53,789 nucleotides of DNA from Arboricoccus pini. GTDB lineage: Bacteria; Pseudomonadota; Alphaproteobacteria; Geminicoccales; Geminicoccaceae. A model generated the notes under the pieces. The model did no database searches. It worked only from the letters and a program-made list of their open reading frames with translations, and had not been told where the DNA came from. Below, piece by piece: positions 26,594-53,619 of this stretch (positions within the stretch are counted from its first letter, which is position 1; every line of letters begins with the position of its first letter). The position numbers and the translations under genes are program-made. The stretch spans positions 1 to 53,789 of the forward strand of contig NZ_FYEH01000021.1 of the NCBI RefSeq assembly GCF_900187945.1, in the 5' to 3' direction.

Positions 26594-26603
26594 GGCGATC
26601 GTT

Positions 26604-30515: not shown

Positions 30516-30540
30516 GGCAAGGCTCCCAGGGGGGCGAGGG

Positions 30541-36484: not shown

Positions 36485-36536
36485 GGTCTTCCTTGATCCC
36501 TAAATGGGACATGCTGGCTGGATCGGGCGACGACGC

Positions 36537-37247
36537 TCAGGCCTCGATGCCGACAAATTCCTCGAGCATCGAGGGGTCGGCGATCGCCTCAGGCGGCACC
36601 TCGCGGGTGATCCGGCCTTTCTGAATGATGAGGATGCGCTGCGAGAGCGCGGCGATGAAATTGAGCTTCTGCTCGACCAGCACCATGGTGAGGTCGCGGC
36701 TTTGGCGCAGGTTCAAGAGCGTCTCGATCATCTCCTCGATGATCGAGGGCTGGATGCCCTCGGTCGGCTCATCCAGAAGGATCAGCTTGGGATCGCCGCA
36801 AAGGCAGCGGGCCAGGGCCAGGAGCTGCTGCTCGCCGCCGGAGAGCGCCCCGCCATTGCGATCCAGGAGGCGCTTCAGGCGGGGGAACTCCTCCAGCACC
36901 TGCTCGATCGTCTGCTTCTCGTTGGTCTTGGCCAGCAGGCAGCCCATGCGGAGATTCTCGAGGACGCTGAGGGCCGGGAAGATCTCGCGGCCCTGCGGCA
37001 CGAAGCCGATGCCCGCGCGCGCGCGGACATAGGGCGAGGCCTTGGTGATGTCCTTGCCCTTCAGCTTCACATGGCCGCCGGTTGCCGGCAGATAGCCCAT
37101 CAGCGTGCGTAGGAGGGTCGTCTTGCCCATGCCGTTATGGCCGAGAATGCCGACGAAACCACCGGCCTCGACCTTGAAATCGACGCCAGCCAGGATCGGG
37201 ATGCGGCCATAGCCGGAGCGGAGACCGGAGACTTCCAGCATCGTCAT
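36537..37247 (-). CDS. urtE: Urea/amide-type ABC transporter ATPase, UrtE-like
   Basis: The 236-aa ATPase of the LivF/UrtE group has Walker A GHNGMGKT, the IGFVPQGREIFPALSVLENL Q-loop region, signature LSGGEQQ and LLDEPTEGIQPSI. UrtE-like details (TLMGYLPATGG) favour the urea/short-amide branch over branched-chain amino acids. It overlaps urtD by 4 bp. Confidence 0.9.
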   Translation of the reverse strand: MTMLEVSGLRSGYGRIPILAGVDFKVEAGGFVGILGHNGMGKTTLLRTLMGYLPATGGHVKLKGKDITKASPYVRARAGIGFVPQGREIFPALSVLENLRMGCLLAKTNEKQTIEQVLEEFPRLKRLLDRNGGALSGGEQQLLALARCLCGDPKLILLDEPTEGIQPSIIEEMIETLLNLRQSRDLTMVLVEQKLNFIAALSQRILIIQKGRITREVPPEAIADPSMLEEFVGIEA

Positions 37248-37972
37248 GCCGCCTGCTTTCCCAGATAGACGTCGCGCACGCGCTGATCGGCAAGGACGAC
37301 GTCGACATCGTCCTCGATCAGGATGCGGCCCTGGTTGAACACCGTCACCGTCTTGGCGATCATGCGGATGAACTGCATGTCGTGCTCAACGACGATGATC
37401 GCCTGCGTCTTGTTGATCTCGCGGATGAGCTCGGCCGTCCGCACGATCTCCTCGTGCGTCATGCCCGCCGCCGGCTCGTCCAGGAGGATGAGCTCGGGCT
37501 CCTGCGCCAGGACGGTGCCGATCTCGACCCATTGGCGCTGGCCGTGCGCCAACTGGCCCACGATCCGGTGGGCGATGCCGGTCAGCCCCAGGCGTTCCAG
37601 CGTCGCGCTCGCGATACGCTTGGTCTGCTGCATCGATTTGTTGCGAGCGGCGGCGACGAAGATGTTCTCGTGCACGGAGAGCCCGTTGAAGACGTTGGGG
37701 ATCTGCGTCTTGATGCCGATGCCGTGCCTGGCGATCTCGTGCGATTTCGCGCCCGTGATGTCCTGACCGCGAAAGAACACCTTGCCCTCGGAGGGGGTGA
37801 GCTGGCCGGTCAGCATCTTGAAGAAGGTGCTCTTGCCGGCGCCGTTCGGACCGATCAGGCAGCGCAGCTCCACCTCGCGGAGGAGAAAATTGACGTCCTC
37901 ATTGGCGGTGACGCCGCCAAAGCGCATCGTCAGGCCCTTGGCCTCGAGAAGCGGCACGGAAGACGTGCTCAT
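37244..37972 (-). CDS. urtD: Urea/amide-type ABC transporter ATPase, UrtD-like
   Basis: The 242-aa ATPase has Walker A GPNGAGKST, the UrtD-typical GIGIKTQIPNVFNGLSVHEN and GQRQWVEIGTVLAQEPELIL, and LLDEPAAGMT. The signature reads LAHGQ instead of LSGGQ, a change common in UrtD. ATG at 37972 overlaps the urtC stop; the longer open frame upstream is not homologous. Confidence 0.9.
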   Translation of the reverse strand: MSTSSVPLLEAKGLTMRFGGVTANEDVNFLLREVELRCLIGPNGAGKSTFFKMLTGQLTPSEGKVFFRGQDITGAKSHEIARHGIGIKTQIPNVFNGLSVHENIFVAAARNKSMQQTKRIASATLERLGLTGIAHRIVGQLAHGQRQWVEIGTVLAQEPELILLDEPAAGMTHEEIVRTAELIREINKTQAIIVVEHDMQFIRMIAKTVTVFNQGRILIEDDVDVVLADQRVRDVYLGKQAA

Positions 37973-39012
37973 GAGCGCACCTCCGCGCCGCGTGTCGTCT
38001 GCTTCTGTTCTTCGCTCCCGGTGCCAGCACGCCGCTGCCAGAAGCCGGTGATCGTGTCGCGCACCACCGGCACCAGGCCCTGCGGGACCAGAAGGACGAA
38101 GGCGACGAGGACGACGCCTAGGACAAGATTGCTGTCGACGGCGCTTTGCGAGCCGGCGAAAGAGATCAGCCACTGGATGAGCACGGCACCGAGGATGGGC
38201 CCGAGCAGAGTGCCAAGGCCGCCCACCAGCACGTAGATGATGACCTGCGCCGACATTGCGAGAGCGAAGACGGTCGGGCTGATGAAGGCGCCCCAGTTGG
38301 TATAGAGGCAGCCGCCGATGCCGGCGATCATCGCCCCGATGATGAAGGTGATCAGCTTATAGAGGCGCGGGTCGTAACCGATCAGGGTGGCGCGTGTTTC
38401 GTTCTCGCGGATGGCGACGATGACGCGGCCCAGCCGCGAGGCCAGAATCCCGCGCAAGAGCACATAGACCAGGATCAGCGTGGCGATCGTTACATACCAG
38501 AGTTGCTCGGGGTCGAGGATCGTCGAAGGATCCCCCGGCATGTTCAAGGTCGGCACCGAGGGCATGCCGTTGAAGCCGCCAAGCGGTGCATTGCCAATCG
38601 TGTACCAATCGCCCGACGTGGCATTGATCAGGTTGAAGAGGATGACCGTAACGGTCAGCGTGATTACGCCGATATAGGCATCGCTGATCCGGCCATAGAA
38701 CATGAAATAACCAAGAAGCGCCGCAAACAGGCCCGGGACGATGATGGCCAGGGCCACCGCACCCGTGCTGTCGCCGAAATTGATGGCCGCCACCGCGTAG
38801 GTATAGCCGCCCAGGCCGAAAAACGCCGCCTGGCCGAACGACATGATGCCGCCATAGCCCCAGATGAAGCCCTGGCTGAGCGCGAAGATCGCCATGACGA
38901 CGAAGACCGTCATCTGCATCAGGCCGAACATGTCGGTCGTGTGGGGCAGCGCGAACATCAAGACGATGCCAAGGGCCACCACGGTGATGAAGCTCGCTAG
39001 AGCCGATTTCAT
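37969..39012 (-). CDS. urtC: Urea/amide-type ABC permease, UrtC-like
   Basis: The 347-aa permease of the LivM/UrtC group has about ten hydrophobic segments and the conserved SQGFIWGYGGIMSFGQAAFF and RENETRATLIGYDPRLYK segments. It lies 13 bp after urtB and overlaps urtD. It forms the channel with the UrtB-like protein. Confidence 0.92.
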   Translation of the reverse strand: MKSALASFITVVALGIVLMFALPHTTDMFGLMQMTVFVVMAIFALSQGFIWGYGGIMSFGQAAFFGLGGYTYAVAAINFGDSTGAVALAIIVPGLFAALLGYFMFYGRISDAYIGVITLTVTVILFNLINATSGDWYTIGNAPLGGFNGMPSVPTLNMPGDPSTILDPEQLWYVTIATLILVYVLLRGILASRLGRVIVAIRENETRATLIGYDPRLYKLITFIIGAMIAGIGGCLYTNWGAFISPTVFALAMSAQVIIYVLVGGLGTLLGPILGAVLIQWLISFAGSQSAVDSNLVLGVVLVAFVLLVPQGLVPVVRDTITGFWQRRAGTGSEEQKQTTRGAEVRS

Positions 39013-39025
39013 GCGACCTGCTCCC

Positions 39026-39892
39026 TTAGATGCTGCGCTTGAAGAAGCGGCCGGTGATGCCTTGCGGCAGGATGCGGATCATGACGATCGCGGCGGCCAG
39101 CAACGCCACCTCGCCCAGGACCGGGGTCGATTTGAACGAGACGATCTCGTTGATGAAGCCGAAGATCATCGAGGCTAGGCCCGTACCGGTGATGATGGCG
39201 GCACCGCCGCCCAGAACGGTGATGAAGGCCTTGGCGATGAAGGCGGCGCCCATGACGGGCGACACACCCGATATCGGCGCCAGGACCCCGCCCGCCAGGC
39301 CTGCCAGAGCGGCGCCGAGCGCGAAGGTCGACATATAGATGCGCGAGGGTGCCACACCCAGGGCCGAGGCCATGTTGGCATTTTGCATGGTGGCGCGCAC
39401 GATGAGGCCGTAGCGCGTGTAGCGCAGCATGCAAAAGAGACCGACCAGCGTCAAAGCGGCGACGATCAGGATGACGATGCCGTAGCCGCTGGCGCCGAAA
39501 TTGCCGATCGAGAAGCCGCCCACCGGCGCCGGCACGCCGCGCACGTCATTGCCGAAGATCGTCGTCATGAGGCCGATCAGGGCGAGGCTCAGCCCCCAGG
39601 TGGCCAGCATGGTGTCAATCATGCGCCCATAGAGGAAACGGATCAGCAAGCGCTCGACGATCAGCCCGACGATTCCCACAACCAACGGCGCGATGACCAG
39701 CATGGCCAGCCAGATATTGATGCCGTTCGTCACGGAAATGACGGTGGTGTAAGCACCCAGCATCATGAACTCGCCATGCGCCAGGTTGATGATTTTCATC
39801 ATGCCGTAGATCACGCCGAGACCGACGGTGATGAGTACGAGCGTGCCAATACCAACCAGGACATTGAACGACACAAGGCCGATCAGATCCAT
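39026..39892 (-). CDS. urtB: Urea/amide-type ABC permease, UrtB-like
   Basis: The 288-aa permease of the LivH/UrtB group shows GVIYGMMKIINLAHGEFMML near the start and GRMIDTMLATWGLSLALIGL in the middle. The ATG at 39892 is preceded by GAGAGGA at a normal distance; an earlier in-frame ATG at 39928 lies inside the intergenic hairpin and is not used here. A strong palindrome separates it from urtA. Confidence 0.92.
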   Translation of the reverse strand: MDLIGLVSFNVLVGIGTLVLITVGLGVIYGMMKIINLAHGEFMMLGAYTTVISVTNGINIWLAMLVIAPLVVGIVGLIVERLLIRFLYGRMIDTMLATWGLSLALIGLMTTIFGNDVRGVPAPVGGFSIGNFGASGYGIVILIVAALTLVGLFCMLRYTRYGLIVRATMQNANMASALGVAPSRIYMSTFALGAALAGLAGGVLAPISGVSPVMGAAFIAKAFITVLGGGAAIITGTGLASMIFGFINEIVSFKSTPVLGEVALLAAAIVMIRILPQGITGRFFKRSI

Positions 39893-39927
39893 CTTTGATC
39901 CTCTCGCGGGGGCAGGCCAGGAAATCA

Positions 39928-39955
39928 CGAAGACGTCCGCTAGCGGACGTCTTCG
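39928..39955. repeat. 28-bp perfect palindrome between urtA and urtB
   Basis: Both arms read CGAAGACGTCCGCT (39928-39941 and its reverse complement to 39955), with no mismatch. In RNA it makes a very stable hairpin (CTAG loop) 10 nt after the urtA stop, with no T-tract. Such elements commonly protect the abundant binding-protein mRNA or attenuate downstream genes. Confidence 0.75.
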
Positions 39956-39965
39956 CTAGGGGGTG

Positions 39966-41216
39966 CTACATCTTAACGTCGACGACGAACTGCTTGTTCG
40001 TATTGGGCGCCTTGATCAGGTCGCAGACCGCCGCCGTGTCTTCGGGCGGCGCATCAGGGAAGGTGTCGATGATGTCCCATTTACGGTCGTGCGCCTTGGC
40101 CAGATAGGCGTTGCGGATCGTGTGGTGGGTGGCCGGATCCATCGTCACGGTCCCGGAGGGCCCCTCGATCGACAGTTTGCTCTCGAGTGCTTCGATGACC
40201 TTCATGCGCTCGACGGAGCCGGCCTTCTTGACCGCGGCCGCCCAGAGCATGATGCCCTCATAGGTCGCACTGCCGAGCTCGCTGATCTCGGCGTCGTTGC
40301 CGAACCTCTTGCTCATCGCCTCGATGAACGTCTTGTTCTGCGGCGTGTTCACGCTCTCGTAATAACCATAGGCGGTCACGATTCCCTCGGTCGTCGCCTG
40401 GTCAAGCGTGCGCAACTCGTTGGACAGGCCAAAGACGCTGGAGGCCACGGGGATCTTGCCCTTCATGTCGGCGGCCGCCCACTGGCGATAGAAACCCACA
40501 TGGTTGGCGCCCACGAGCGCTGAGAGGACAACGTCCGGCCCGGCATTTTGGATCTTGCTGATCGCCGAGGAGAAATTGGTGACATCAAGCGGGAAGAAAT
40601 CGACAGCAGCGATGCTGCCGCCAGCTTCCTGCGTGTATTTCGTCATCCATTTCGAGGTGATCTGGCCGTAATTATAATCGGCCGCCACGATATAAGCCTT
40701 CTTGCCCCAGTTCTTCATGGCATAGGGGACGATCTTCGAGACCGTCTGAGCCGGCGTCGTTCCGGTGCAGAAGGTGTTACGATCGCAGACGCCGCCTTCA
40801 TACTGGGTGTTGTAGAAATAGAGCGTCTTGAAGCGGTCGAAGATAGGCCGGATAGCCTCGCGCGAGGCCGAGGTGATGCCGGCCTGGACGACGTCCACCT
40901 TGTCCTTCAGCGCCAGCTGCTGGGCGAACTGGGTGTAGAGCTGCATGTTCGACTGGGTGTCGTAATTGATCAGCTCGACCTTGCGGCCCAGGAGGCCACC
41001 CGCGGCATTGATGTCGTCCACCGCCAGTTGAACCGTCTTGATCATCGACTGGCCGGAAAGGCCGATCGGTCCGGACAGGTCGAGCAGGCTTCCGACCTTG
41101 ATCGGCGCGTCGGCGGCAAGGCCGTTGCGGGCGATGAAGGGCATGGCCACGGCACCCGCGGCCAATGCCGAGCCACCCTTGAGAAGCGTGCGTCGGCCAA
41201 GTCGCATTACAACCAT
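39966..41216 (-). CDS. urtA: Urea/amide-type periplasmic binding protein, UrtA-like
   Basis: The protein of about 416 residues has a Tat signal (RLGRRTLLKGGSALAAG) and the UrtA/FmdD-type fold: KVGSLLDLSGPIGLSGQSM, QAGITSASREAIRPI and YIVAADYNYGQITSKW. Homologues bind urea or short-chain amides. ATG at 41216 has AAAGGA 10 nt upstream; an overlapping GTG at 41222 is too close. Its neighbours are two amidases rather than urease, which favours an amide solute. Confidence 0.9.
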   Translation of the reverse strand: MVVMRLGRRTLLKGGSALAAGAVAMPFIARNGLAADAPIKVGSLLDLSGPIGLSGQSMIKTVQLAVDDINAAGGLLGRKVELINYDTQSNMQLYTQFAQQLALKDKVDVVQAGITSASREAIRPIFDRFKTLYFYNTQYEGGVCDRNTFCTGTTPAQTVSKIVPYAMKNWGKKAYIVAADYNYGQITSKWMTKYTQEAGGSIAAVDFFPLDVTNFSSAISKIQNAGPDVVLSALVGANHVGFYRQWAAADMKGKIPVASSVFGLSNELRTLDQATTEGIVTAYGYYESVNTPQNKTFIEAMSKRFGNDAEISELGSATYEGIMLWAAAVKKAGSVERMKVIEALESKLSIEGPSGTVTMDPATHHTIRNAYLAKAHDRKWDIIDTFPDAPPEDTAAVCDLIKAPNTNKQFVVDVKM

Positions 41217-41312
41217 CGTCACAAGGTCCTTTTATCCGCCGTTGGGTAGATTGCGGACTTTGTCAGCAACAACGATGCCAAACGCTTGGCCGACGCCCGT
41301 CCGACTACGGAA

Positions 41313-42725
41313 TCAGCCGATCTTGGGGTGGCGTAGATGCCAGTCGGTGACGCGCTGGAATGCCGCACCCGCCTGGACCAGCAGCGCTTCCGAGAGATGC
41401 GTGCCGACGAGTTGCAGGCCGATCGGTACGCCGTTGGCGTCAAAGCCGCCAGGAAGTGTGATCGTCGGATTGCCCGCCATGTCGAAGGGGGCCGTGAATT
41501 TGAGGACGTTGGTCAGGACGTCGGCACTCCGTTCGTTGGCCCATTGCTCGAGCGTGGGCACGGGACCGGTCAGGACGGGTGCCAGCATCAGGTCGACCTC
41601 GGCAAAAAACGCCTTCAGGCGGGCTTTGAAGACGTCACGCGCGATCTGCAGCCTGGCGATCTCGACACCCGTCGTGGCGTAGCCCAAGTCGATCAGCCCC
41701 TTAAGCTCGGGACCATATTCGCTGGCGCGCGCGGGGTAGGTCGCAAGATGGGCATAGGCCGTCTCGACCGCGCAGTAGGTCGTCCAGCCCTCCAGCACGT
41801 CCGTCCAGTCCGGCATCGGCACGACGCGCACATCGGCGCCCAGGTCCTTCAAGACGGCCAAGGCTGCGTCGAGTGCCGCCACGATGGCGGGGTCGCTGCC
41901 CTCCATGATGTAGGCCGGATCGTAGGCGATCCGCAGGCCCTTGACGCTGCCTGCCTTGCCCAGCGTCAAATAGTCCGGCACCGGATCGGGCAGGCTGGTC
42001 GGATCGTTTTGATCCTTGCCGGCGATGGCGCCAAGGACGATGCCGGCATCCAGGGCATTTCTTGCCATCGGCCCCACATGATCAAGCGAATCGGAAAGCG
42101 GCATGACGCCGTAACGGCTGACACGGCCCCAGGTGGGCTTGATGCCGGTTAGGCCGCAGGCGCCTGAGGGAAAGCGGATCGAACCACCGGTGTCCGAGCC
42201 CAGTGACGCGAAGCAGAGCCCCGCCGCGGTGGCAGCGCCCGAGCCACTTGAGGAAGATCCGGTCCAGCGCTCAGCCGCCCAGGGGTTGCGCGGCGCCTCG
42301 ATCGAGGGATGATGCGCACTGAAGGCACCCTCGGTCATCTTGAGCTTGCCCAGGAGCACGGCACCCGCCTGCGCCAGGCGCACCGTCACCGTCGCATCGA
42401 AGGCCGGCTTTTGCGCCGCATGGATCGGCATGCCGCCACCTGTCGGGATATCCTTGGTGAAGCAGAGATCCTTAAGGGCGATGGGCACACCGTGCAGGGG
42501 CCCCCGCCATTGGCCGCGATCCAGCTCGGCCTCGGCCGCCTCGGCCTGAGCGCGGGCATGCTCGGGCGTGACGAGCTGGTAGCTCTTCAGGCCGGCATCG
42601 AGCTCGCTTATCCGGGTCAGCATCGCCTCGGTCAGCGTCACGGGCGAGACCTCGCGCCGCCGGATGGCCTCGGACAATTCGGTAATGGACCAGAAGGGCA
42701 GGGCAGCCGCTGTCATCGTCGTCAA
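41313..42725 (-). CDS. Amidase-signature hydrolase (amidase 2)
   Basis: The 470-aa protein has Lys85 (IALKDL), the cis-Ser in TGSSSSGSG (157-158) and nucleophile Ser182 (SDTGGSIRFP), the full amidase-signature triad, and resembles GatA-like amidases. It is the first gene of the operon amidase 2-urtABCDE-amidase 1. A palindrome matching the regulon consensus lies only 9 bp before its ATG, so repression of the whole operon is plausible. No gatB/gatC partners are present, which argues against tRNA amidation. Confidence 0.9.
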   Translation of the reverse strand: MTTMTAAALPFWSITELSEAIRRREVSPVTLTEAMLTRISELDAGLKSYQLVTPEHARAQAEAAEAELDRGQWRGPLHGVPIALKDLCFTKDIPTGGGMPIHAAQKPAFDATVTVRLAQAGAVLLGKLKMTEGAFSAHHPSIEAPRNPWAAERWTGSSSSGSGAATAAGLCFASLGSDTGGSIRFPSGACGLTGIKPTWGRVSRYGVMPLSDSLDHVGPMARNALDAGIVLGAIAGKDQNDPTSLPDPVPDYLTLGKAGSVKGLRIAYDPAYIMEGSDPAIVAALDAALAVLKDLGADVRVVPMPDWTDVLEGWTTYCAVETAYAHLATYPARASEYGPELKGLIDLGYATTGVEIARLQIARDVFKARLKAFFAEVDLMLAPVLTGPVPTLEQWANERSADVLTNVLKFTAPFDMAGNPTITLPGGFDANGVPIGLQLVGTHLSEALLVQAGAAFQRVTDWHLRHPKIG

Positions 42726-44648: not shown

Positions 44649-45476
44649 TCAGGGGCCAGGGAGTTCTGCTTGGATCGCCTCCAGACGTTCGGTGAAGCGC
44701 AGCATGCCGTCATCCAGGCCGCCACCATCCAGGGCGGCCAAGCGGACGAGCAGGCCCGCCTCGCGCCTGAGCGGCGTCGCCGCCACATGCAGGCCCGGCA
44801 TCTCCACGGCCTGGAGAGACTGCGCCAATTCCGTCCAGGGCGCGGGCCTCAGGCTGGCCAGGAGGAGCGTGCCGAAGGCGCGATAGGGCCCGATGATGCC
44901 GGGTCCGCCCGCCGCCAGCGCCAGGCCCGTCACCGACTGGCGATCCAAAAGGATGCGCCGGCCCGCCGCCGAGCAAAGGTCGATCTCGTTCGCCAGCAGT
45001 CTGAAATGCTCCCCGGCCGCCCAGGGATCATGCGTCATGAAGCCGTCGCGAAAGATCAGCGTGGCACCGGCTGCGAGCCTGAAGCGGAAACGCTGCGTCA
45101 CCTGGCTTTGCGGAAAGAGGATGAGCGGGCGGGCCAGATAGGCAAGGCATCCGCCGGGGGCGATCTCGACCTCGACCTCGACCTCCGCCTGACCCCCGTC
45201 CCGCATGGCGTGCACGGTGGTCGCGGCCGGCAATTCCAGGCGCGCGTCGGCGCCCGACTCGACCGCCAGGCACTGGCGAAGTTGCTCGCCCGAGAACAGG
45301 CCGCCCGAAGCCGACTGGACGATGACGTGGCAGCCGGCCGCAGCGCGGGCAGGACGCAATGGCGCCTGGATCGCATAGGGATAGGCGACCCGCCGGCGGA
45401 CCAGCCGGGTATCGGCTTGGGCGCGGCGAAAGACGAGGTCGAGTGCCGCGGGCTCGACCGGGATTGGGGCATCCAA
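44649..45476 (-). CDS. ureD: Urease accessory protein UreD (cluster 2)
   Basis: The 275-aa protein has the UreD pattern (VIVQSASGGLFSGEQLRQCL, LPAATTVHAMRDGGQA, FRDGFMTHDPWAAGE). It is strongly diverged from the cluster 1 UreD. No ATG is available in frame near the ureC2 stop, so TTG at 45476, 2 bp after it, is inferred as a coupled start. It is the last gene of the importer-TetR-urease operon. Confidence 0.82.
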   Translation of the reverse strand: MDAPIPVEPAALDLVFRRAQADTRLVRRRVAYPYAIQAPLRPARAAAGCHVIVQSASGGLFSGEQLRQCLAVESGADARLELPAATTVHAMRDGGQAEVEVEVEIAPGGCLAYLARPLILFPQSQVTQRFRFRLAAGATLIFRDGFMTHDPWAAGEHFRLLANEIDLCSAAGRRILLDRQSVTGLALAAGGPGIIGPYRAFGTLLLASLRPAPWTELAQSLQAVEMPGLHVAATPLRREAGLLVRLAALDGGGLDDGMLRFTERLEAIQAELPGP

Positions 45477-45478
45477 GA

Positions 45479-47185
45479 TCAGCGCATCATGTAGCGGCGG
45501 TTCAACGGAACGCGGGCGGCAGGCTCGCAGGTCAACGGCACGCCATCGGCGCGAACGACGAAGGTCTGCGAATCGACCTCGATGCGCGGCAATGCCGCGT
45601 TGCGGACCATGTCCTTCTTGCCCAGGCGGCGCACCGACTTGATTTGCACGAAGGCCTTGCCGACCTTGAGCTTGGTGCGCACGTCGGCCTCGATCGCCAG
45701 CTTCGAGACGAAGGTGACGCCCAGTTCCTGCGGCGAGCGGCCGAACGAGCCCCACATCGGCCGTTGGATCATGGGCTCGGATTCGATCTGGCTCGCATTG
45801 CCGTCGCCCATGACCGCCCAGACGATGAAGCCGCTCTTGATGACGGCCGCGGGCTTGATGCCGAAGGAGGCGCGGGGCCAGAGCACGATGTCGGCCATCT
45901 TGCCGGGCTCGAGCGAGCCCACATGTGCATCGATGCCCGAGGCGATGGCGGGGTTGATCGAGAGCTTGGCGATATAGCGCTTGATGCGCTCATTGTCGGC
46001 CCTGGCGGTTGTCTCCTCGGGCAGCCGGCCGATCCGCTCCTTCATGACATGCGCCAGCTGCCAGCATTTTGCGGCGTTCTCGGCCAGCCTTCCCATGCCC
46101 TGCGTATCGGTTGCGAAGATCGAGATCGCCCCCATGTCGTGGAGGAAGTCCTCAGCCGCCATTGTCTGCGGCCGGATGCGGGATTCGGCGAACGCCAGGT
46201 CCTCCGGCAGGCGCCAGTCCATCATGTGCGCCAGCATGGTCATGGGAATCCCCTCGTTCAGCGCATAGGCGGTGAAGGGATTGGTGGGGTTGGTCGAAGA
46301 GGGCAGCACGTTGGCCTGGCCGTTGACGCGCAAGAGGTCGGGCGCGTGGCCGCCGCCCGCCCCTTCGGTATGGAACATGTGGATCGTGCGATCGCCGATC
46401 GAGGCCAACGTGTCCTCGCAAAAACCGAACTCGTTGATCGTGTCGGTATGCAGGTTGACCTGGAAATCGTTGCGATCGGCGGCGATGAGCGAACCATTGA
46501 TCACCGCACCCGACGCCCCGAAATCCTCGTGGATCTTCACACCCAGCGCGCCGCCGGCCACCGATTCCTCGACGGCGGCGGGATCGGAACAGCCGCGTCC
46601 GAGGAAGCCGAAATTCAACGGCGAGAACTCGGCCGCCTGGATCATCTGGCCGGTCACGTTGGGCCCAGAAGTGCTGACGTCGAAATGCGGCCCCGGCGAC
46701 ATGCCGATCATCGTCGTGGTGCCACCGGCCAGCGCGTGCTCGTTTTGCTGCGGCGAGAGAAAATGCGCGTGCGCCTCGATCGTCCCAGGGGTCGCGATGA
46801 AGGCCTCGCCATGGATCACGGTCGTGTTGGGGCCGCAGACGAGAGCCGGATCGACGCCCGCCATGATGTCGGGATTGCCGGCCTTGCCCACGCCGGCGAT
46901 CCGCCCGTCGCGAATGCCGATATCGGCCTTGATGATGCCGAGGACGGGGTCGATGATCGTGGCGTTCTGGATGACCGTATCGAGCGCGCCGGATGCATAA
47001 GTGCCGTCCGTCTTGAAGCCTTCGCCATCGCGCATAGATTTTCCGGCGCCGGTCGTCAGTTCGTCGCCGTAGCTGGTCAGGTCCTGCTCGATCATGGCCA
47101 GGAGGTTGGTGTCGCCCAGGCGTACCATGTCGCCCTTGGTCGGGCCGTACATCGAGGCGTAGCGCTCGCGGGTGAGGGTCGTCAT
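45479..47185 (-). CDS. ureC: Urease alpha-like amidohydrolase with altered flap and pocket (UreC2)
   Basis: The 568-aa protein keeps the dinickel ligands H139/H141, K217, H246, H272 and D360, and the catalytic His320. Against Klebsiella urease, recalled from memory, the flap Cys319 is Ala (MLAHMM for MVCHHL), KIHEDWG is KIHEDFG, and the substrate loop after MIGMSPGP is about four residues shorter. PQQ is kept. ATG at 47185 gives MTTLTRERYASMYGP; an open extension upstream is not homologous. It may act on urea weakly or on a substituted urea or guanidine-like compound; this is inference. Confidence 0.9.
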   Translation of the reverse strand: MTTLTRERYASMYGPTKGDMVRLGDTNLLAMIEQDLTSYGDELTTGAGKSMRDGEGFKTDGTYASGALDTVIQNATIIDPVLGIIKADIGIRDGRIAGVGKAGNPDIMAGVDPALVCGPNTTVIHGEAFIATPGTIEAHAHFLSPQQNEHALAGGTTTMIGMSPGPHFDVSTSGPNVTGQMIQAAEFSPLNFGFLGRGCSDPAAVEESVAGGALGVKIHEDFGASGAVINGSLIAADRNDFQVNLHTDTINEFGFCEDTLASIGDRTIHMFHTEGAGGGHAPDLLRVNGQANVLPSSTNPTNPFTAYALNEGIPMTMLAHMMDWRLPEDLAFAESRIRPQTMAAEDFLHDMGAISIFATDTQGMGRLAENAAKCWQLAHVMKERIGRLPEETTARADNERIKRYIAKLSINPAIASGIDAHVGSLEPGKMADIVLWPRASFGIKPAAVIKSGFIVWAVMGDGNASQIESEPMIQRPMWGSFGRSPQELGVTFVSKLAIEADVRTKLKVGKAFVQIKSVRRLGKKDMVRNAALPRIEVDSQTFVVRADGVPLTCEPAARVPLNRRYMMR

Positions 47186-47198
47186 GGCTGTATCCTCC

Positions 47199-47903
47199 TC
47201 AAGCGCCCTGATAGCCGCGCTGCTTTGCCAGATCCCGGGCCGCTTGGCGAACGGTCTCGTCGCCGATGGCACCCTCGGTCAGTCCGCCCTGGCCGCGCAC
47301 GACGCCGTTACCCGCCATGGGCACCAGCTGCACTGTTCGCCGCAGCCCGGGCTCGAAGCGCACGCCCGACCCCGAGGCCGCGTCGAGGCGCATGCCGAAC
47401 GCCTTGGCCCGATCGAACTGCAGCATCCGGTTGACCTCGAAGAAATGCGTGTGGCTCCTGACCTGGATGTCCCGATCGCCTAGATTAACAACATCCAGGC
47501 TGATTCGAGGGCGGCCGGCATTGAGTTCGATCTCGGGCGCTGCCTCGTCGACGATCACCTCGCCAGGCACCAGGGCATCGGCGATGGGCTCCTTGCCGGT
47601 GGCGATCGGATCGAAGACGATCACCATCTTGGTGCCTTCCTCGAAATTGGCCTCCACGGAGATCTTCTCGATCATCCTGGCCACGCCCGGCATGACGTCG
47701 TCGGTGGTGAGCAACTGACCCGCCATCTCGACGATCGCCTCGTAGGTCATGCCCATCCTGGCCCCAAGCAGCATTTCGTCGGCGATGAGGGCAACCGCTT
47801 CCGGCTGCGACAGGCGGCAGCCCCTGGTCTTCAAGGTCCGCGCCAACTGCGCCGCGTTGAAGATGATCAGCCGCTCCATCTCGGTCGGTGCCAGGTTCAT
47901 CAT
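47199..47903 (-). CDS. ureAB: Fused urease gamma-beta subunit (UreAB, cluster 2)
   Basis: The 234-aa protein joins UreA (NLAPTEMERLIIFNAAQLAR) and UreB (THTHFFEVNRMLQFDRAKAF). The same fusion occurs in cluster 1, but the two sequences differ widely, so this is an old duplication or separate acquisition rather than a recent copy. Two ATGs in tandem (47903, 47900) are possible starts. It lies 13 bp upstream of ureC2. Confidence 0.9.
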   Translation of the reverse strand: MMNLAPTEMERLIIFNAAQLARTLKTRGCRLSQPEAVALIADEMLLGARMGMTYEAIVEMAGQLLTTDDVMPGVARMIEKISVEANFEEGTKMVIVFDPIATGKEPIADALVPGEVIVDEAAPEIELNAGRPRISLDVVNLGDRDIQVRSHTHFFEVNRMLQFDRAKAFGMRLDAASGSGVRFEPGLRRTVQLVPMAGNGVVRGQGGLTEGAIGDETVRQAARDLAKQRGYQGA

Positions 47904-47915
47904 CGACTTCTTCCT

Positions 47916-48611
47916 CTAGCTCGCGAAAAGGCGTCCGGATTGGCTCGCGTGACGCATCATCGCCATGTCGGCAAGGGGGGTGAAACTCGTGGCCGCGCTC
48001 AGGGGCGGCAGCGACGGATCGGCCGCTGCCGCGATCTCGGCGCGGCAGGCAAGGAGGGCGCGCTGGCCATCCAGGTGGCTGATCAGCCCGAGCCTGGTTG
48101 CGGCCGAGCAGAAGGCCGCCGCCGTCTGGTAGGCAGCAACGAGCAGCGTCTCCATGAGCCCGAGTCCGACCCCCGCCAGGACCAGGCCCTGAACGATCGG
48201 CAGATGACCCTGGACCTCGCCGGCCAGGACCAGACGGCGATAGGAGGCGACGCCCGGCGTGCCCAGTTGCGCGTGTACCAGCAAGAGCGAGCCACCGGCC
48301 CGAATGGAGCCCAGTCGCTGCGTCTCGCCGACGAGCATTGCGTCCAGCAGATCGTCGTCGATGCCAAGGGCGGTGGCATCGCCGGCCTTGGCGTGCGCAT
48401 GGCCGACGAAGAGCCGGTCGAAGCTGGCCCAACGCCCGGTCATCTGGCCGCCAAGGAACGCGGCGAAGCCGGCGCGATCCAAGTGCCCGTCCGCCTGCAG
48501 CGTCTCCAGCCCCCAGGAGAAGGCAAAGCTGCCGCCGGGAAACTGGCTGTCGCCATGCTGGAGAGCTGTCAGGAGCGACAGCTTTCCAGCCATCGCCGAA
48601 GTCTCACTCAT
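47916..48611 (-). CDS. ureF: Urease accessory protein UreF (cluster 2)
   Basis: The 231-aa protein begins with the UreF signature (ALQHGDSQFPGGSFAFSWGL). It would assemble with the UreD of this cluster. The cluster has no ureE or ureG, so nickel delivery must use the UreE and UreG encoded at 27.4-31.7 kb or elsewhere. It follows the tetR gene by 17 bp. Confidence 0.88.
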   Translation of the reverse strand: MSETSAMAGKLSLLTALQHGDSQFPGGSFAFSWGLETLQADGHLDRAGFAAFLGGQMTGRWASFDRLFVGHAHAKAGDATALGIDDDLLDAMLVGETQRLGSIRAGGSLLLVHAQLGTPGVASYRRLVLAGEVQGHLPIVQGLVLAGVGLGLMETLLVAAYQTAAAFCSAATRLGLISHLDGQRALLACRAEIAAAADPSLPPLSAATSFTPLADMAMMRHASQSGRLFAS

Positions 48612-48628: not shown

Positions 48629-49252
48629 TCAGGACGTCACCGCCAGAACATGCTCTTGCAGATCGGCCCAGCTGTCAGCGGCCAGCGCCTTGATGTCCGT
48701 CGAGGGTCGGGTCATGGCGACGAAGAGCAGGCCGTCGATCTGGATCGAGATGAAGCGGATCGTCCGATCGACGTCGAGACGGCGAAACAGGCCGGCCGCC
48801 ATGCCGTCCTCGAGGCAGGCGCGCAGGATCTGCCGTTCGCGCTCGTAGAGATAGTCGATGAGCTCGTTCAGCCGTCGATCGTCCTGCAGGCTGCCGCGAT
48901 AGGCGATCATGATGCGCGCCATCTTCCGCAGCGATTCGAACATTTCGATATTGACGTTGAACCAGTCCGTCAGTGCCCCCACCGGGTTGCCATCCGTCGA
49001 TCGCGCGCGGTAGCGCTCCAGCGTGCGATTGACGGCCAATTCGAGTGCTGCGTGGCAAAGATCGTTCTTGCCAGCAAAATAATAATAGATGAGAGCGACG
49101 TTAACGCCGCAGCGATCGGCGACCTCACGCATCGAGACCGAGGCGAAGTCGCGCGTCGAGAAGAGATCCAGGGCAGCATCCAAGATAGCGGCGGCCCTGC
49201 CATCCGGCGGCAATGCCCGGCCGCTCGATGCCGGCAGTTCGAGCGCACCCAT
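48629..49252 (-). CDS. TetR-family transcriptional regulator
   Basis: The 207-aa protein has a TetR DNA-binding domain (about 15-66; MREVADRCGVNVALIYYYFA) and an alpha-helical ligand domain. It is the only TetR protein in the window and lies inside the importer-urease operon. It is therefore the best candidate to bind the four 16-bp palindromes at 25221, 42734, 52167 and 52207. The ligand could be the transported compound. Its start overlaps the ATPase stop. Confidence 0.9.
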   Translation of the reverse strand: MGALELPASSGRALPPDGRAAAILDAALDLFSTRDFASVSMREVADRCGVNVALIYYYFAGKNDLCHAALELAVNRTLERYRARSTDGNPVGALTDWFNVNIEMFESLRKMARIMIAYRGSLQDDRRLNELIDYLYERERQILRACLEDGMAAGLFRRLDVDRTIRFISIQIDGLLFVAMTRPSTDIKALAADSWADLQEHVLAVTS

Positions 49253-50028
49253 CAGGCGACGGCCTCCAGCATCCGGACAGCCTCGGCCTTGCGTGATTCG
49301 CGCACGATCTTGGACTTGGCCTCTATGTCGGAGACGATGCGCGAGCCATAGGCGGTGGGGTCCTGCGGGTCGTAGCGGATCTTGTCGATCGCGATGACCC
49401 GCGTGCTCAGCGAGAAGGCCTCCGAGAGATCATGCGTGACCATGACGATGGTCATCTGGTTTTCCTCCCACAGCTCGCGGACGAGATGGTGCATTGATTT
49501 TCGCGTGTGCGGATCGAGCGCCCCGAAGGGTTCGTCCAGCAGCAGCACCTTGGGCCGGACGATGAGCGCCTGCGCGATGGCGAGACGCTGCTGCATGCCG
49601 CCCGAGAGCTGGTGGGGAAACTTGTCGGCCGACGACCCCAGTCCGACGCGCTCCAAAAGACGCATCGCCTCGGCTTCGACTTCTCCGCGCTCCTGGCCGC
49701 GCAGTCGGCCAGTAAGGGGCGCCTTCGCCCATTCCCGGCCCAGCGTGACGTTGCGCAGGACCGAGAGATGCGGAAAGACCGAGTAGCGCTGGAAGACGAC
49801 GCCTCGGTCCTGCGAGGGCTCCGGCGCGATCGGCTGCCCATCGATCAGGATCTTGCCATGCGTGGGCTGCTCCTGGCTCAGCAGCAGGCGCAGAAAGGTC
49901 GATTTGCCAGCACCGCTTGGCCCGACGACGCCCAAAAACTCGTGGTCGGCGAGCTCCAGCGAGATGTCTTCGAGCACCCTGACGCCGCCATATTCCTTGG
50001 AGACGGACTTGAACGCGATGGTCGTCAA
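49252..50028 (-). CDS. Taurine/nitrate-type ABC transporter ATPase
   Basis: The 258-aa ATPase of the SsuB/TauB group has Walker A GPSGAGKST, signature LSGGMQQR and LLLDEPFGALDPHTR. Its C-terminal extension after VIAIDKIRYDPQDP resembles ATPases next to urea-carboxylase genes. TTG at 50028 is inferred, 4 bp after the permease stop, because homology starts there. It energises the importer encoded upstream. Confidence 0.88.
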   Translation of the reverse strand: MTTIAFKSVSKEYGGVRVLEDISLELADHEFLGVVGPSGAGKSTFLRLLLSQEQPTHGKILIDGQPIAPEPSQDRGVVFQRYSVFPHLSVLRNVTLGREWAKAPLTGRLRGQERGEVEAEAMRLLERVGLGSSADKFPHQLSGGMQQRLAIAQALIVRPKVLLLDEPFGALDPHTRKSMHHLVRELWEENQMTIVMVTHDLSEAFSLSTRVIAIDKIRYDPQDPTAYGSRIVSDIEAKSKIVRESRKAEAVRMLEAVA

Positions 50029-50032
50029 GGAT

Positions 50033-50851
50033 CTACCCTTCCTTGGGATTGTACCAGGGGTAGCAGCGACGTTGGGTGGCCACGAGGGCCACATCCATGA
50101 GGAAGGCCAGGAGCGTTATCCACGCGACGTAGGGCAAGATAACGTCCATGGCCAGATATCGCCGGACCAGGAAGATGCGATAGCCGAGGCCGCCCTCGGA
50201 GGAGATTGCCTCGGCGGCGATCAGATAGAGCCAGGCCGGTCCGAGCGAGAGGCGCAGCATGTCGATCAGGCGTGGCATGACCTGCGGCAGCACGATGCGA
50301 AGGATCATCTGCCAGCTCGAGCCGCCCAGGGTCTGCGCCTTGATCATCTGCTCCTTCGGCAGTTCGCCGACGGTGAGCGCCACCGCGCGAACGATGTAGG
50401 GCGCCACGCCGATCACCATCAAGATCAGCTTGGCGGGCTCGCCCAGGCCGAAGAGGATGAAGAGGATCGGCAGGATCGCCAAAGGCGGGATCAGCGAGAT
50501 GACCGCCACCAGGGCGCTGAAGCCCGCTTTGACATAGGGAATGAAGCCGATGACGATCCCTAAGACGAGCCCGATCACGGTCGAGATCAGAAGGCTTGAG
50601 AACAGCCGCAGCAGGCTCACATAAGTGTCGGTCCAAAACAGATACTGGCCGCTCAGGGGATCGACTTTCAGGGCCATGCGCGCGAGCGCGGCGCCGAAGG
50701 ACGAAAACGACGGCATGAGCTTGTCGGCCGGATTGACCGCCAGCCTCGCTTCGGATGCCGTCAAATAGACGAAGCCGATCAAGAGGAAGGGCAGAATGGC
50801 CAGGAACAGGCCGGGCCCGCGGCCAGGGCTGTAATTGATGACGCGTTTCAT
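50033..50851 (-). CDS. Taurine/nitrate-type ABC transporter permease
   Basis: The 272-aa permease has about six helices and an EAA-type loop (LPKEQMIKAQTLGGSSWQMI). The first helix is followed by a large periplasmic insert (about 40-80), as in the urea-carboxylase-associated permeases. It lies between the binding protein and ATPase genes. Confidence 0.9.
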   Translation of the reverse strand: MKRVINYSPGRGPGLFLAILPFLLIGFVYLTASEARLAVNPADKLMPSFSSFGAALARMALKVDPLSGQYLFWTDTYVSLLRLFSSLLISTVIGLVLGIVIGFIPYVKAGFSALVAVISLIPPLAILPILFILFGLGEPAKLILMVIGVAPYIVRAVALTVGELPKEQMIKAQTLGGSSWQMILRIVLPQVMPRLIDMLRLSLGPAWLYLIAAEAISSEGGLGYRIFLVRRYLAMDVILPYVAWITLLAFLMDVALVATQRRCYPWYNPKEG

Positions 50852-50919: not shown

Positions 50920-51996
50920 CTAGAGCTTGCCGGCCGCCGCCAGGGCCGTGATATCGTCATTGACCCTGAGCTTGACGTTGGCGGTGTTGCCCAGGACCGA
51001 GCCGTCCGGGAAGCTGATGCCAACGTCGTCCTTCGAGGTGGCTCCCTGGCCGAAGAGTCCCTGCTCGAAGGAGAAGGTGCGGATATTGTCCCAGATTTCC
51101 TTGGTCGAGGCGGCGGTCAAAAAGTCGCTCGCTTCCTTGGCTGTCTTGAAGAAATGCGTCGTCGCCTCCTGGCTCTCGAAGCCGGCGACATCGGTGCCCA
51201 TACCGGCTGCCATGACCTCGCGCATGTCCTTGGCCTTGGCATCGTTGCCGCTCAAGATGCCAAGGGCCTCGTACCAGGCCCCGGCCAGCGCCTTGATGGC
51301 TTCGGGGTGCGCCTTCATCGTTGCCGTCTTGGTGATGAAGACATCCATGATCTCGCCTGGAATCTCCTGCGAGGTGAAGAGCACCTTGGTGCCTGGCACG
51401 CCCTTGATCATGTCGTCGGTCATGGGCTTCCAACTGGCCACGTTCGTGACGTCGGGCGAGGTCAGGTAGGCCGAGGCGATGTCGGCGTCGGAGATGTTGA
51501 CCGTCTTGACGTCGCCAAGGCCGGTCATCCCGTTCTTCACCAGCGCGCGCTGCAAGAGATAATGCGAGACCGAGAACTGCACGAGGTCGACGGTCTGGCC
51601 CTTCAACTCCTTGACCGAGCCGGCCTTCTTGGACAGGAGGACGTCATTGCCGTTGGAATAGTCGCCGATCATGAAGAGCGTCGTGTCGACGCCGCCGGCT
51701 GCCGGCATCGTCAGGCCGTCCATGCCGGCCACGGTGACGATGTCGAGGTCGCCGCCGATGAACTGATTGATGCTGCCCACATAGTCGTTGACCAGGGTGA
51801 CCTTGAGGTCGACATTATATTTGTCGCCCCATTTCTTCAGGATGCCGCTCTTTTCCATGTAGACCAGCGGCATGAAGCCCACATAGATCGACCAGCCGAT
51901 CTTGATGGTCGGCCGTTCGGCCGCCCGCGCCGGCGCCAAGCCCGTCACCAGGAGGACGGCTACGAGGCAGATTGCCCCGATGATGCGTCTGTTCAT
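50920..51996 (-). CDS. Periplasmic binding protein, urea-carboxylase-region type
   Basis: The 358-aa protein has a Sec signal (MNRRIIGAICLVAVLLVTGL). The mature part begins IKIGWSIYVGFMPLVYMEKS and continues NDYVGSINQFIGGDLDIVTV and LTMPAAGGVDTTLFMIGDYS. As I recall it, this is the pattern of the binding proteins found beside urea (guanidine) carboxylase genes. Here the neighbours are urease-like genes and no carboxylase, which points to a urea- or guanidine-like solute. ATG at 51996 gives a normal signal peptide. Confidence 0.88.
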   Translation of the reverse strand: MNRRIIGAICLVAVLLVTGLAPARAAERPTIKIGWSIYVGFMPLVYMEKSGILKKWGDKYNVDLKVTLVNDYVGSINQFIGGDLDIVTVAGMDGLTMPAAGGVDTTLFMIGDYSNGNDVLLSKKAGSVKELKGQTVDLVQFSVSHYLLQRALVKNGMTGLGDVKTVNISDADIASAYLTSPDVTNVASWKPMTDDMIKGVPGTKVLFTSQEIPGEIMDVFITKTATMKAHPEAIKALAGAWYEALGILSGNDAKAKDMREVMAAGMGTDVAGFESQEATTHFFKTAKEASDFLTAASTKEIWDNIRTFSFEQGLFGQGATSKDDVGISFPDGSVLGNTANVKLRVNDDITALAAAGKL

Positions 51997-52043
51997 GCAA
52001 TCTCCCATCTCTGGCGCCACCGGACATCCGCCCGGGGCCTGCG

Positions 52044-52059
52044 CCGGACACCTGTCCGG
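52044..52059. promoter_or_regulatory. GC-rich dyad in the importer operon leader
   Basis: CCGGACACCTGTCCGG has 7-bp arms around a 2-bp centre, 48 bp upstream of the binding-protein start, with a related CGGACATCCG nearby (52021-52030). It could be a leader hairpin or operator. The stretch does not show the conserved guanidine-I riboswitch sequences I would recognise. Confidence 0.3.
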
Positions 52060-52166
52060 GCCACCTCGGTGCAAGGGGTGCAAGATGCGGGCCTAGGCGA
52101 ATTGCATTTGCGGCGCCCCGGGAAAGTTCGCTAACAGCGCCCAATTTGACGTCATCAGCCTCAAAA

Positions 52167-52182
52167 TTAAGCGCTCGTTTAA
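52167..52182. promoter_or_regulatory. TetR-type operator, copy 1
   Basis: TTAAGCGCTCGTTTAA is an imperfect 16-bp palindrome (TTAARCGNNCGYTTAA). It lies in the divergent region between the importer operon (start 51996) and LLM2 (start 52294), 40 bp (about four helical turns) from copy 2, which suits cooperative binding on one DNA face. Confidence 0.65.
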
Positions 52183-52206
52183 GCGTTCGCAGACCCGGCA
52201 ACTGAT

Positions 52207-52222
52207 TTAAGCGGTCGTTTAA
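52207..52222. promoter_or_regulatory. TetR-type operator, copy 2
   Basis: TTAAGCGGTCGTTTAA differs from copy 1 by a single base in the centre. It lies 72 bp before the LLM2 start. Together with copy 1 it could control both divergent transcripts. Confidence 0.65.
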
Positions 52223-52293
52223 GAGCTTCACGCGTCATCACGGCGACTGGCCTGTTCCTTGCGGCGCGGCCTCACGAATAGAGACCGTTTTGG

Positions 52294-53619
52294 ATGAGGA
52301 TGATGGCGCAAAAGAAATTCCACATGGGCTGGTTCTTGAACTTCACGGTCGACGAATGGACCGAGCCGCATGCGGGGCTGGGCGGCAATCCCTGGAACGG
52401 CAAGTTCTATGTCGAGGTCGGGCAGATGCTGGAAAAGGCTTGCTTCGACTACATGATGATCGAGGACAAGCTGATCGTCTCCGAAGCTTATGGCGGCACG
52501 TCCGAGGTCTATCTCAAGCACGGGCTTATGGCGCCCAAGCACGATCCCGTGCCGCTGGCGACGACGGTGGGAGTGATGACGCAAAAGCTGGGCGTCGTCG
52601 CCACGATCTCGACCCTGGGCTATCCGCCTTATCTCCTGGCGCGCGCCTGCTCGACGATCGACAGCCTGGTCGAGGGGCGCTTCGGCTGGAACATCGTCAC
52701 CTCGGCCGAAGATTTCGCCGCGCAGAATTTCGGTATGGAGAAGCTGCCGCCGCGCGAGCAGCGCTACGAGATGGCGGACGAGTATGTGGATCTCGTCAAT
52801 CAACTCTTCGATTCATGGGACAAGGATGCCGTCGTCCTGGATCGCGAGAGCAGGACCTATGTCGATTACAAGAAGGTCCGTCCGATCCACTTCAAGGGCA
52901 AGTATTATTCCTGCCGTGGGCCGCTCAACACGGTGCCCTCGCCGCAGCATCGCCCGGTCTATGTCCAGGCGGGCGGCTCGCCGCGCGGGCGCGACTTCGC
53001 CGCCAAGCACGCCGATTCGATCATCGCCGTTGCCAACGGCGTGCAGGAGATGAAGGCATATCGTGAGGACATTCGCGCCCGCGCGGCCAAGCACGGTCGC
53101 AATCCCGACGACGTCAAGGTGCTCTACCTGATATCGCCCACGGTTGGCGCGACGACCGCCGAGGCCAAGGAGAAGTTCCGCCGTATCGTTGAGCACCCGG
53201 ACTATATCGAGCAGTCGCTGGCGCTGATTTCCTTCATCACCGACATCGATTTCGCCCAGTTCGATCTCGACAAGCCTTTGCCCGGCAAGCTGACGACGAA
53301 CGGCGAATCCGGCTCGCTCGACAAGTTCCAGCAATGGGGCAGCGGCAAGACGCTGCGCCAGCTCTGCGTCGACGAGGCGGGTGGGGCGGTCTCCTCGATC
53401 GAGCTGGTCGATTCCTACGCCAACGTCGCCGAGCGCATGGCCGATGCCATGGCCGAGGTCGGCGGCGATGGCTATCTGATCACCTCGCCCTCGCACCGCG
53501 TCAGTCGCCGCTATGTCAGCGACATCTGCGAAGGCGTCATCCCGATCCTCCAGCGCCGGGGCGTCGTGCGCACCGAATATACGGGCAAGACGCTGCGCGA
53601 GACGCTGCGGGAGTTCTAG
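52294..53619 (+). CDS. LLM-class flavin monooxygenase, NtaA/SnaA/DszA family (copy 2)
   Basis: The 441-aa paralogue of the protein at 25283 shares long segments with it (for example FKGKYYxxRGPLN and QAGGSPRGRxFAAxHAD). It should use FMNH2 and O2 to cleave a C-N or C-S bond, and needs a flavin reductase not seen in the window. The start is uncertain among ATGs at 52294, 52300 and 52303. It diverges from the importer-urease 2 operon across the two palindromes, a strong hint of a shared pathway. Confidence 0.9.
   Translation: MRMMAQKKFHMGWFLNFTVDEWTEPHAGLGGNPWNGKFYVEVGQMLEKACFDYMMIEDKLIVSEAYGGTSEVYLKHGLMAPKHDPVPLATTVGVMTQKLGVVATISTLGYPPYLLARACSTIDSLVEGRFGWNIVTSAEDFAAQNFGMEKLPPREQRYEMADEYVDLVNQLFDSWDKDAVVLDRESRTYVDYKKVRPIHFKGKYYSCRGPLNTVPSPQHRPVYVQAGGSPRGRDFAAKHADSIIAVANGVQEMKAYREDIRARAAKHGRNPDDVKVLYLISPTVGATTAEAKEKFRRIVEHPDYIEQSLALISFITDIDFAQFDLDKPLPGKLTTNGESGSLDKFQQWGSGKTLRQLCVDEAGGAVSSIELVDSYANVAERMADAMAEVGGDGYLITSPSHRVSRRYVSDICEGVIPILQRRGVVRTEYTGKTLRETLREF

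Follow-up and report, generated by a model that had tools for sequence, protein, structure and literature searches.

UreC2, a urease alpha homologue encoded by Arboricoccus pini, is probably a working nickel amidohydrolase of the urease family that serves amide or ureide catabolism and whose main substrate is not free urea. We read UreC2 as a working enzyme because its gene is intact and under purifying selection, its catalytic set is complete, and it has its own UreAB, UreF, and UreD proteins. We read its main substrate as something other than urea because a further UreC occurs everywhere checked, amidase genes are linked to ureC2-type genes, and the accompanying importers appear not to be of the standard Urt type. 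On the wider proposition, that UreC2 typifies a widespread nickel amidohydrolase subfamily of alpha- and betaproteobacteria that is annotated as urease and cleaves a small amide or N-substituted urea, with urea itself not the main substrate, in an import-amidase-"urease" pathway, we consider the evidence evenly poised. The name "UreC2 subfamily" was coined in this analysis.

The ureC2 operon and its surroundings

The window, by which we mean the whole stretch of DNA analyzed (53,789 nucleotides of contig NZ_FYEH01000021.1), carries ureC2 on the minus strand at positions 45479 to 47185. Its translation comprises 568 amino acids with zero internal stops. It is part of a compact series of minus-strand genes that encode, in order, a substrate-binding protein (SBP), permease, ATPase, TetR protein, UreF, UreAB, UreC2, and UreD; 68 nt follow the first gene, and all other neighbors overlap or lie at most 20 nt apart. 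The features of this operon and of the adjoining DNA are as follows.

34970-36484, minus strand: amidase of subfamily PRK07235 (832.9 bits; cutoff, 545)
36537-39928, minus strand: LIV-type ABC permeases and ATPases (LivH, 39026-39928; LivM, 37969-39012; LivG, within 37244-38173; LivF, 36537-37247)
39966-41222, minus strand: LIV-type ABC substrate-binding protein, UrtA-like (below cutoff for both TIGR03669, 348.1 versus 494.8 bits, and TIGR03407, 264.4 versus 492.75 bits)
41313-42725, minus strand: amidase-signature protein, the second amidase (PF01425, 351.3 bits)
44649-45755, minus strand: ureD2 accessory protein, longest open reading frame, overlapping ureC2 (PF01774, 101.6 bits)
47199-47903, minus strand: ureAB2, fused gamma/beta subunit (NF009671, 297.6 bits; cutoff, 243)
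47916-48611, minus strand: ureF2 accessory protein (PF01730, 84.6 bits)
48629-49252, minus strand: TetR-family regulator within the operon (PF00440, 60 bits)
49252-50094, minus strand: ABC ATPase (all NCBIfam matches shown are below cutoff; nitrate, taurine, and sulfonate types are among the best)
50033-50851, minus strand: ABC permease (best match TauC, below cutoff)
50920-52083, minus strand: ABC substrate-binding protein of the urea-carboxylase-associated (uca) type (TIGR03427, 397.2 bits; cutoff, 333.9)
52166-52183 (one mismatch) and 52206-52223, between the divergent transcripts: two copies of TTTAAGCGNTCGTTTAAG, candidate TetR operators
52294-53619, plus strand: NtaA/DmoA-family FMN monooxygenase (LLM), divergent from the ureC2 operon (TIGR03860, 400.3 bits; cutoff, 279.7)

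The likely start of ureD2 is the TTG at 45476, the first ATG, GTG, or TTG past the ureC2 stop codon (45479-45481). The LIV transporter and the PRK07235 amidase form a module (34970-41222) that adjoins the second amidase; the Liv gene names derive from clustering with the annotated Liv genes of locus L061 and from the translations. The original prediction placed an importer and a monooxygenase in the ureC2 operon. The importer is indeed part of it, but the monooxygenase gene is divergently transcribed and stands outside. By shuffling, 0 occurrences of the TTTAAGCGNTCGTTTAAG pattern are expected, although the pattern itself was derived from these same two sites; the copies are plausibly operators of the TetR protein.

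Elsewhere in the window lies a second atypical urease operon (UreE-F-AB-C1-G-D, 26590-31868, minus strand), the UreC1 of which belongs to a short-loop clade termed C1; UreF1 and UreD1 were identified by position and clustering. An allantoate-amidohydrolase-like gene (33107-34489) is located near this operon, and a second LLM monooxygenase gene (25283-26593, plus strand), convergent with ureD1, encodes a protein that shares 46% identity with the monooxygenase at 52294. An LLM gene thus adjoins each of the window's urease-like operons.

Active-site residues of UreC2

In a Pfam search, UreC2 matches PF00449 (Urease_alpha) and PF01979 (Amidohydro_1). Against the NCBIfam equivalog TIGR01792 (urease_alph; cutoff, 680), it scores 715.2 bits, a pass at no great distance that counts against a non-urea reading; for comparison, the window's UreC1 reaches 809.3 bits. 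UreC2 numbering coincides with that of the Klebsiella enzyme across most of the active site. The nickel ligands H139, H141, K217 (predicted to be carbamylated), H246, H272, and D360 and the catalytic residues H219, D221, H320, and R336 are present in UreC2 and invariant in all 84 aligned UreC proteins, the catalytic four accordingly in 35/35 UreC2-type proteins. The flap reads A319-H320-M321-M322, HEDFG replaces HEDWG, and the TDTQG motif is seen. The presence of all nickel ligands, the replacement of C319 by Ala, the AHMM flap, the HEDFG motif, and a substrate loop about four residues shorter had all been described in the original prediction, and each of these observations held; the loop stretch has 27 residues, versus 31 in 27/29 rows outside the short-loop clades.

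The main rival to a non-urea reading is a specialized true urease: UreC2 would be an isozyme retained for particular circumstances (urea set free within an amide or ureide pathway, a separate regulator, or a different affinity or pH range), and its pocket changes would be neutral or would adjust kinetics. We regard this as possible but rather unlikely. The retention of every catalytic residue and the TIGR01792 match speak for it, and crystal structures of C319A are known, judging from the structure titles, as urease variants, which also counts against a non-urea reading. Against it stand two residues that are invariant in canonical rows, the Trp of HEDWG and the second His of the flap; each is replaced in 35/35 UreC2-type proteins. 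Residue 321 is never His in these proteins, and residue 222 is Phe (n = 26), Leu (n = 5), or Tyr (n = 4), never Trp. Judged from the alignment, these two absences are the group's own marks. Residue 319 (Ala, n = 27; Cys, n = 7; Gly, n = 1, the window protein included) is no clade marker since it varies inside the group. Residues 312 and 363 are Gly in 35/35 proteins each, residue 359 is Thr, and the loop stretch 155-181 spans 27 residues in 35/35.

The variation at residue 319 also bears on a third reading, in which UreC2 would be a urease with a flap changed so as to withstand thiol-reactive inhibitors or metals, whose target is Cys319, with the substrate unchanged. Ala or Gly occupies the position in 28/35 proteins, and inhibition by chemicals aimed at the flap Cys is described in PMC7433671; the Cys is kept, however, in 7/35, and resistance would leave the loss of H321 and W222 and the linkage to amide hydrolases unexplained. 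We therefore consider this reading very unlikely.

According to the same review, PMC7433671, the Klebsiella (KAU) pocket consists of A167, H219, E220, D221, G277, C319, H320, R336, A363, and M364, and the NH groups of urea are contacted by G277, A363, A167, and possibly C319. UreC2 retains 7/10 of these residues; positions 167, 319, and 363 differ, which are three of the four NH-contact positions. Because C319 varies and residue 363 is Gly in other clades too, this score is not decisive for urea use. Moreover, the contacts of Ala363 and Ala167 are made by their main-chain carbonyls and need not be lost when the side chain changes. Canonical-conserved columns were altered in 22/92 cases near the active site and in 34/187 elsewhere, with no significant enrichment (Fisher p 0.27; L056 and L071 were left out of the canonical set), and the pocket argument is thus weak by itself.

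The short loop and the phylogeny of UreC

The 84 aligned proteins were reduced to 72 rows for a quick tree and to 47 rows for a careful search with the pocket columns dropped, both rooted on jack bean urease, the one characterized enzyme in these trees (the chromosomal Klebsiella and the Sporosarcina ureases are not among the rows). Gene fragments (L017-L019 and L022-L029) were left out, and the partial L053 was left out of residue counts. In the 47-row tree, UreC2 types form one clade with support of 100/100 and a stem of 0.60, which counts for the main reading, and the long stem weighs against a true urease. The window protein falls in this single clade obtained without pocket columns and carries a non-His residue at 321, a non-Trp residue at 222, G312, G363, and a 27-residue loop. 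UreC2, the clades C1, S, and N, and a Haloarcula protein together form a short-loop superclade (support, 100/99), apart from which stands the canonical clade (99/92) containing UreC3 of the window's genome. The 72-row tree agrees. The phylogenetic check suggested in the original prediction thus places UreC2 outside the canonical bacterial clade, but in a superclade that includes the Haloarcula protein.

A loop of 28 residues together with G363 is found in 20/20 proteins of clades C1 (which includes the window's UreC1), S, and N. Outside the short-loop clades, the loop has 31 residues in 27/29 rows, the exceptions being L139 (30 residues) and L071 (27 residues and A363), a UreC encoded on the Haloarcula hispanica plasmid pHH406. 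The loop was probably shortened a single time, earlier than UreC2 emerged, and the short loop alone cannot mark a new substrate. Urease activity has been reported for H. hispanica at the species level in PMC12330313 and PMC7305310, which quote Mizuki 2004, and a short loop in a UreC of such a species favors the true-urease rival.

Clade C1 adjoins Urt, allantoin, or urate/purine genes in several loci, and these neighborhoods look like urea or purine nitrogen use. The occurrence of the short loop and of A363G in C1 therefore makes these pocket features weaker evidence for a changed substrate. For the different or bulkier substrate that had been proposed from the residues, the description stands while the inference is weakened (loop and G363 in C1, loop in Haloarcula, Ala/Cys toggling at 319, and p 0.27); the proposal gains support from other evidence, namely, the further UreC in 30/30 genomes and the linkage to amide hydrolases.

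Two of the short-loop clades have peculiarities of their own. Clade N (L123, L130, and L132, from the genomes of L052, L049, and L040) is strongly diverged, with a CHNL flap and HEDWSSS, and its stem of ~1.05 makes it the longest-stemmed UreC group in these trees. Clade S (L069, L070, L116, L118, and L131) has Ser at the flap Cys position and a short loop. Four of its five members are on plasmid records, one of them at a locus on a conjugative plasmid of Klebsiella aerogenes, and its loci adjoin ABC transporter genes, with ANTAR-domain regulators in three.

Predicted structure

The AF2 model of UreC2 has a mean pLDDT of 84.8 and a pTM of 0.91, and its best PDB matches are ureases (1ie7_C: Z 46.0; rmsd 2.4; 557 aligned residues). 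To judge from sequence and model, the fold, metal site, and catalytic apparatus of UreC2 are those of a urease, and the superposition of the model on solved ureases speaks for the true-urease rival. The changed loop residues 169-171 have pLDDT values of <50, and the shape of the pocket is not fixed by the model. An AF2 control on the canonical UreC3 was poor (pLDDT 66.5) and was left unused.

Redundancy, selection, and metal loading

The genome of the window encodes three UreC proteins. A further UreC (48-57% identity) was present in 30/30 genomes reached via the related loci L030-L060 (L056 omitted), which weighs against a true urease, and also in genomes G003 and G004. Within the family of the window, 3/31 genomes, including the window's own, have UreC2. 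Pairwise dN/dS values for UreC2 ranged from 0.020 to 0.215 (11 valid pairs, with the L040/L057 pair excluded); UreC2 is under purifying selection but is not the cell's only urease-like enzyme in the genomes checked. That its physiological role differs from that of the resident urease is well supported by this redundancy and by genomic context.

UreC2 might also be inactive or not metallated, for example because the operon lacks ureG and ureE. The ureC2 operon indeed contains neither gene, the genome's only two UreG genes stand with UreC1 and UreC3, and no UreG match was obtained in the stretches examined for eight clade A loci (L037-L043 and L057; L037 is a short contig). All ligands are invariant, however, and dN/dS is far below 1; UreE and UreG genes lie ~14-18 kb from ureC2 in the same window, and UreC2-type loci have their own UreG in 14/23 cases for clade A and 12/12 for clade B. 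We give an inactive UreC2 hardly any credence.

The eight loci without a UreG match come from betaproteobacterial metagenome-assembled genomes (MAGs) and have an ureAB-ureC2 arrangement, with the LIV transporter and amidase in 7/8; the stretches examined gave no match to UreE, UreF, or UreG queries. In L040, a CobW/COG0523-type GTPase gene adjoins ureC2.

Gene neighborhoods of UreC2-type and canonical loci

As a control for gene neighborhoods, we used canonical urease loci from 20 of the 30 genomes, taking ~9 kb per side where the contig allowed (control stretch L149 covers 11 kb, mainly on one side); all were motif checked (20/20). Three UreC2-type loci on short contigs (L037, L049, and L053) were left out of the counts. 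A PRK07235 amidase (at least 50% identity) occurred in 12/21 clade A loci and 0/20 canonical loci (Fisher p 5e-5). No amidase at 50% identity was found in the stretches examined for the other 9/21 clade A loci, which counts against the main reading. Clade A loci also carry a LIV-type ABC transporter, with a UrtA-like SBP, at least 35% identical to that of the window, in 10/21. Linkage to a true Urt urea transporter is frequent, though not general, for functional ureases. Counted as UrtA-like hits at an identity of at least 35%, such proteins were found in 0/21 clade A, 0/11 clade B, and 9/20 canonical loci; at 30%, the count for clade A rises to 9/21.

Clade B loci showed a different set of neighbors. 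Proteins with an asparaginase domain (10/11), FmdA/AmdA-family proteins (9/11), and Dpp/Opp-type permeases (10/11) were each present in 0/20 canonical loci, and UreF, UreAB, and UreG accompany UreC2 in 11/11 long clade B loci. The Dpp-type transporter was considered as a nickel importer; the five proteins examined, all from one locus, scored below the NCBIfam nickel cutoffs. At the Chthonobacter locus L035, a Dpp-type ABC transporter occurs together with PRK07235. One asparaginase-domain protein of 562 amino acids (L062, 11456-13144) and its homologues have an asparaginase-like stretch at residues 231-338, and the remainder matches no Pfam family.

UreC2-type loci differ from canonical ones in the branch of their transporters and in carrying genes for amide hydrolases, whereas canonical loci have Urt genes or neither kind; this argues against a true urease. 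A small amide or an N-substituted urea as the substrate would fit these neighbors best. A urt-like transporter encoded beside FmdA and an aliphatic amidase is interpreted in PMC3098086 as a non-urea importer, possibly one for acetamide or formamide. A C1 locus of Ancylobacter has an aliphatic amidase, and one S locus has a nitrilase-family gene; amide-type genes are thus not exclusive to UreC2. The amidases could merely belong to a general nitrogen-scavenging island, which would speak against the main reading.

Genes found only in the window

The uca importer, TetR, and LLM monooxygenase genes stood beside 0/35 other UreC2 loci in the stretches examined. We therefore rejected the importer and the monooxygenase as general UreC2 partners; they are local additions to the gene cluster of the window. 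The importer SBP falls in TIGR03427, a family named putative urea transporter, and this favors the true-urease rival.

In Salipiger, the trio of TetR, uca ABC transporter, and LLM lies beside a creatininase-family gene (identities to the window of 40% for TetR, 56-66% for the uca ABC proteins, and 64.5% for LLM). LLM was also rejected as a general partner of uca, as Salipiger was the only case among nine LLM loci (one of which, L178, spans only 3.7 kb) and no uca SBP match was found at the eight others. In Agrobacterium vitis, a 55% identical asparaginase-domain homologue adjoins an ABC transporter and an NtaA/DmoA monooxygenase that is only 28% identical to the window's. The pairing of an oxygenase with an amide or ureide hydrolase would thus seem to recur, if thinly. 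A link to guanidine was rejected as well. The window contains no Rfam match of any kind at the gathering threshold, hence no riboswitch by this criterion, and a urea/guanidine-carboxylase-type gene was located on a different contig (C20), where the uca transporter proteins have no match at E 1e-5 in the 18 kb around it.

Proposed function and implications

Judged by residues and context together, UreC2 may be a urease relative shifted to a different substrate. As its main job, it would hydrolyze a small amide or an N-substituted urea (ureide) that the cell has imported, and not free urea. Its dinickel center would be built with UreG, and probably UreE, from the UreC1 or UreC3 operon. The carboxamide would bind to nickel as urea does and be attacked by the bridging hydroxide beneath the H320 flap, and the loss of the Ala167-type loop, the C319 thiol, the second flap His, and the bulk of Trp222 may leave room for a substituent. 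The partner amidase would act on another amide, either in that compound or in a related one, and the presumably TetR-controlled uca importer and FMN monooxygenase could supply an oxidized or dealkylated precursor.

If the substrate has changed, UreC2 would exemplify how substrates can diverge within the urease alpha family, and it would offer a natural comparison for what the Ala167 loop and two flap residues, the Cys and the second His, contribute in urease. A gene called ureC in a genome or metagenome would then not always signify urea use, and MAGs that carry such genes would be misinterpreted. Even as a true urease, UreC2 would mark a clearly delimited group of paralogues and raise a question amenable to testing. 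A search of PMC titles and abstract openings (subscription journals lay outside its scope) returned, among the matches listed, no paper on a urease alpha paralogue group with a different substrate.

Comparison with known systems

On the theme of multiple urease operons, PMC2492869 states that Brucella has two and that, by the evidence available, just one of them codes for an active urease. Modules resembling the LIV transporter-amidase module of the window occur elsewhere. Stretches of Shinella, Tistrella, and Caballeronia carry SBP-LivHMGF-PRK07235-like amidase modules, accompanied by a MarR gene and another gene of the substrate-binding type, in which the SBP is 59-62% and the amidase 64-66% identical to the window's; unlike the window, these stretches have no ure genes nearby.

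Among UreC proteins, clades C1 (UreC1 of the window, Aminobacter, and Methylobacterium), S (Klebsiella and Comamonas plasmids), and N share the short loop and G363 with UreC2. Unlike UreC2, all three clades retain W222; the second flap His persists in 12/12 C1 and 4/5 S proteins, while N has Asn. Residue 319 is Cys in C1 and N and Ser in S, as opposed to mostly Ala in UreC2. The UreC of H. hispanica resembles UreC2 in its 27-residue loop and its place in the same superclade but, unlike UreC2, keeps C319, H320, H321, W222, and A363.

The canonical UreC proteins of K. aerogenes, Sporosarcina pasteurii, and jack bean have the same fold as the UreC2 model (Z 44-46; rmsd 2.3-2.8; 524-557 residues). 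UreC2 shares with canonical UreC the nickel ligands, the position of the carbamylated Lys, H219, D221, H320, R336, the partner subunits, and UreF and UreD. It differs in sequence (44-48% identity), in a loop four residues shorter, in having mostly Ala at 319, no second flap His, Phe, Leu, or Tyr at 222, and G363, and in belonging to a separate clade with an amide-type neighborhood.
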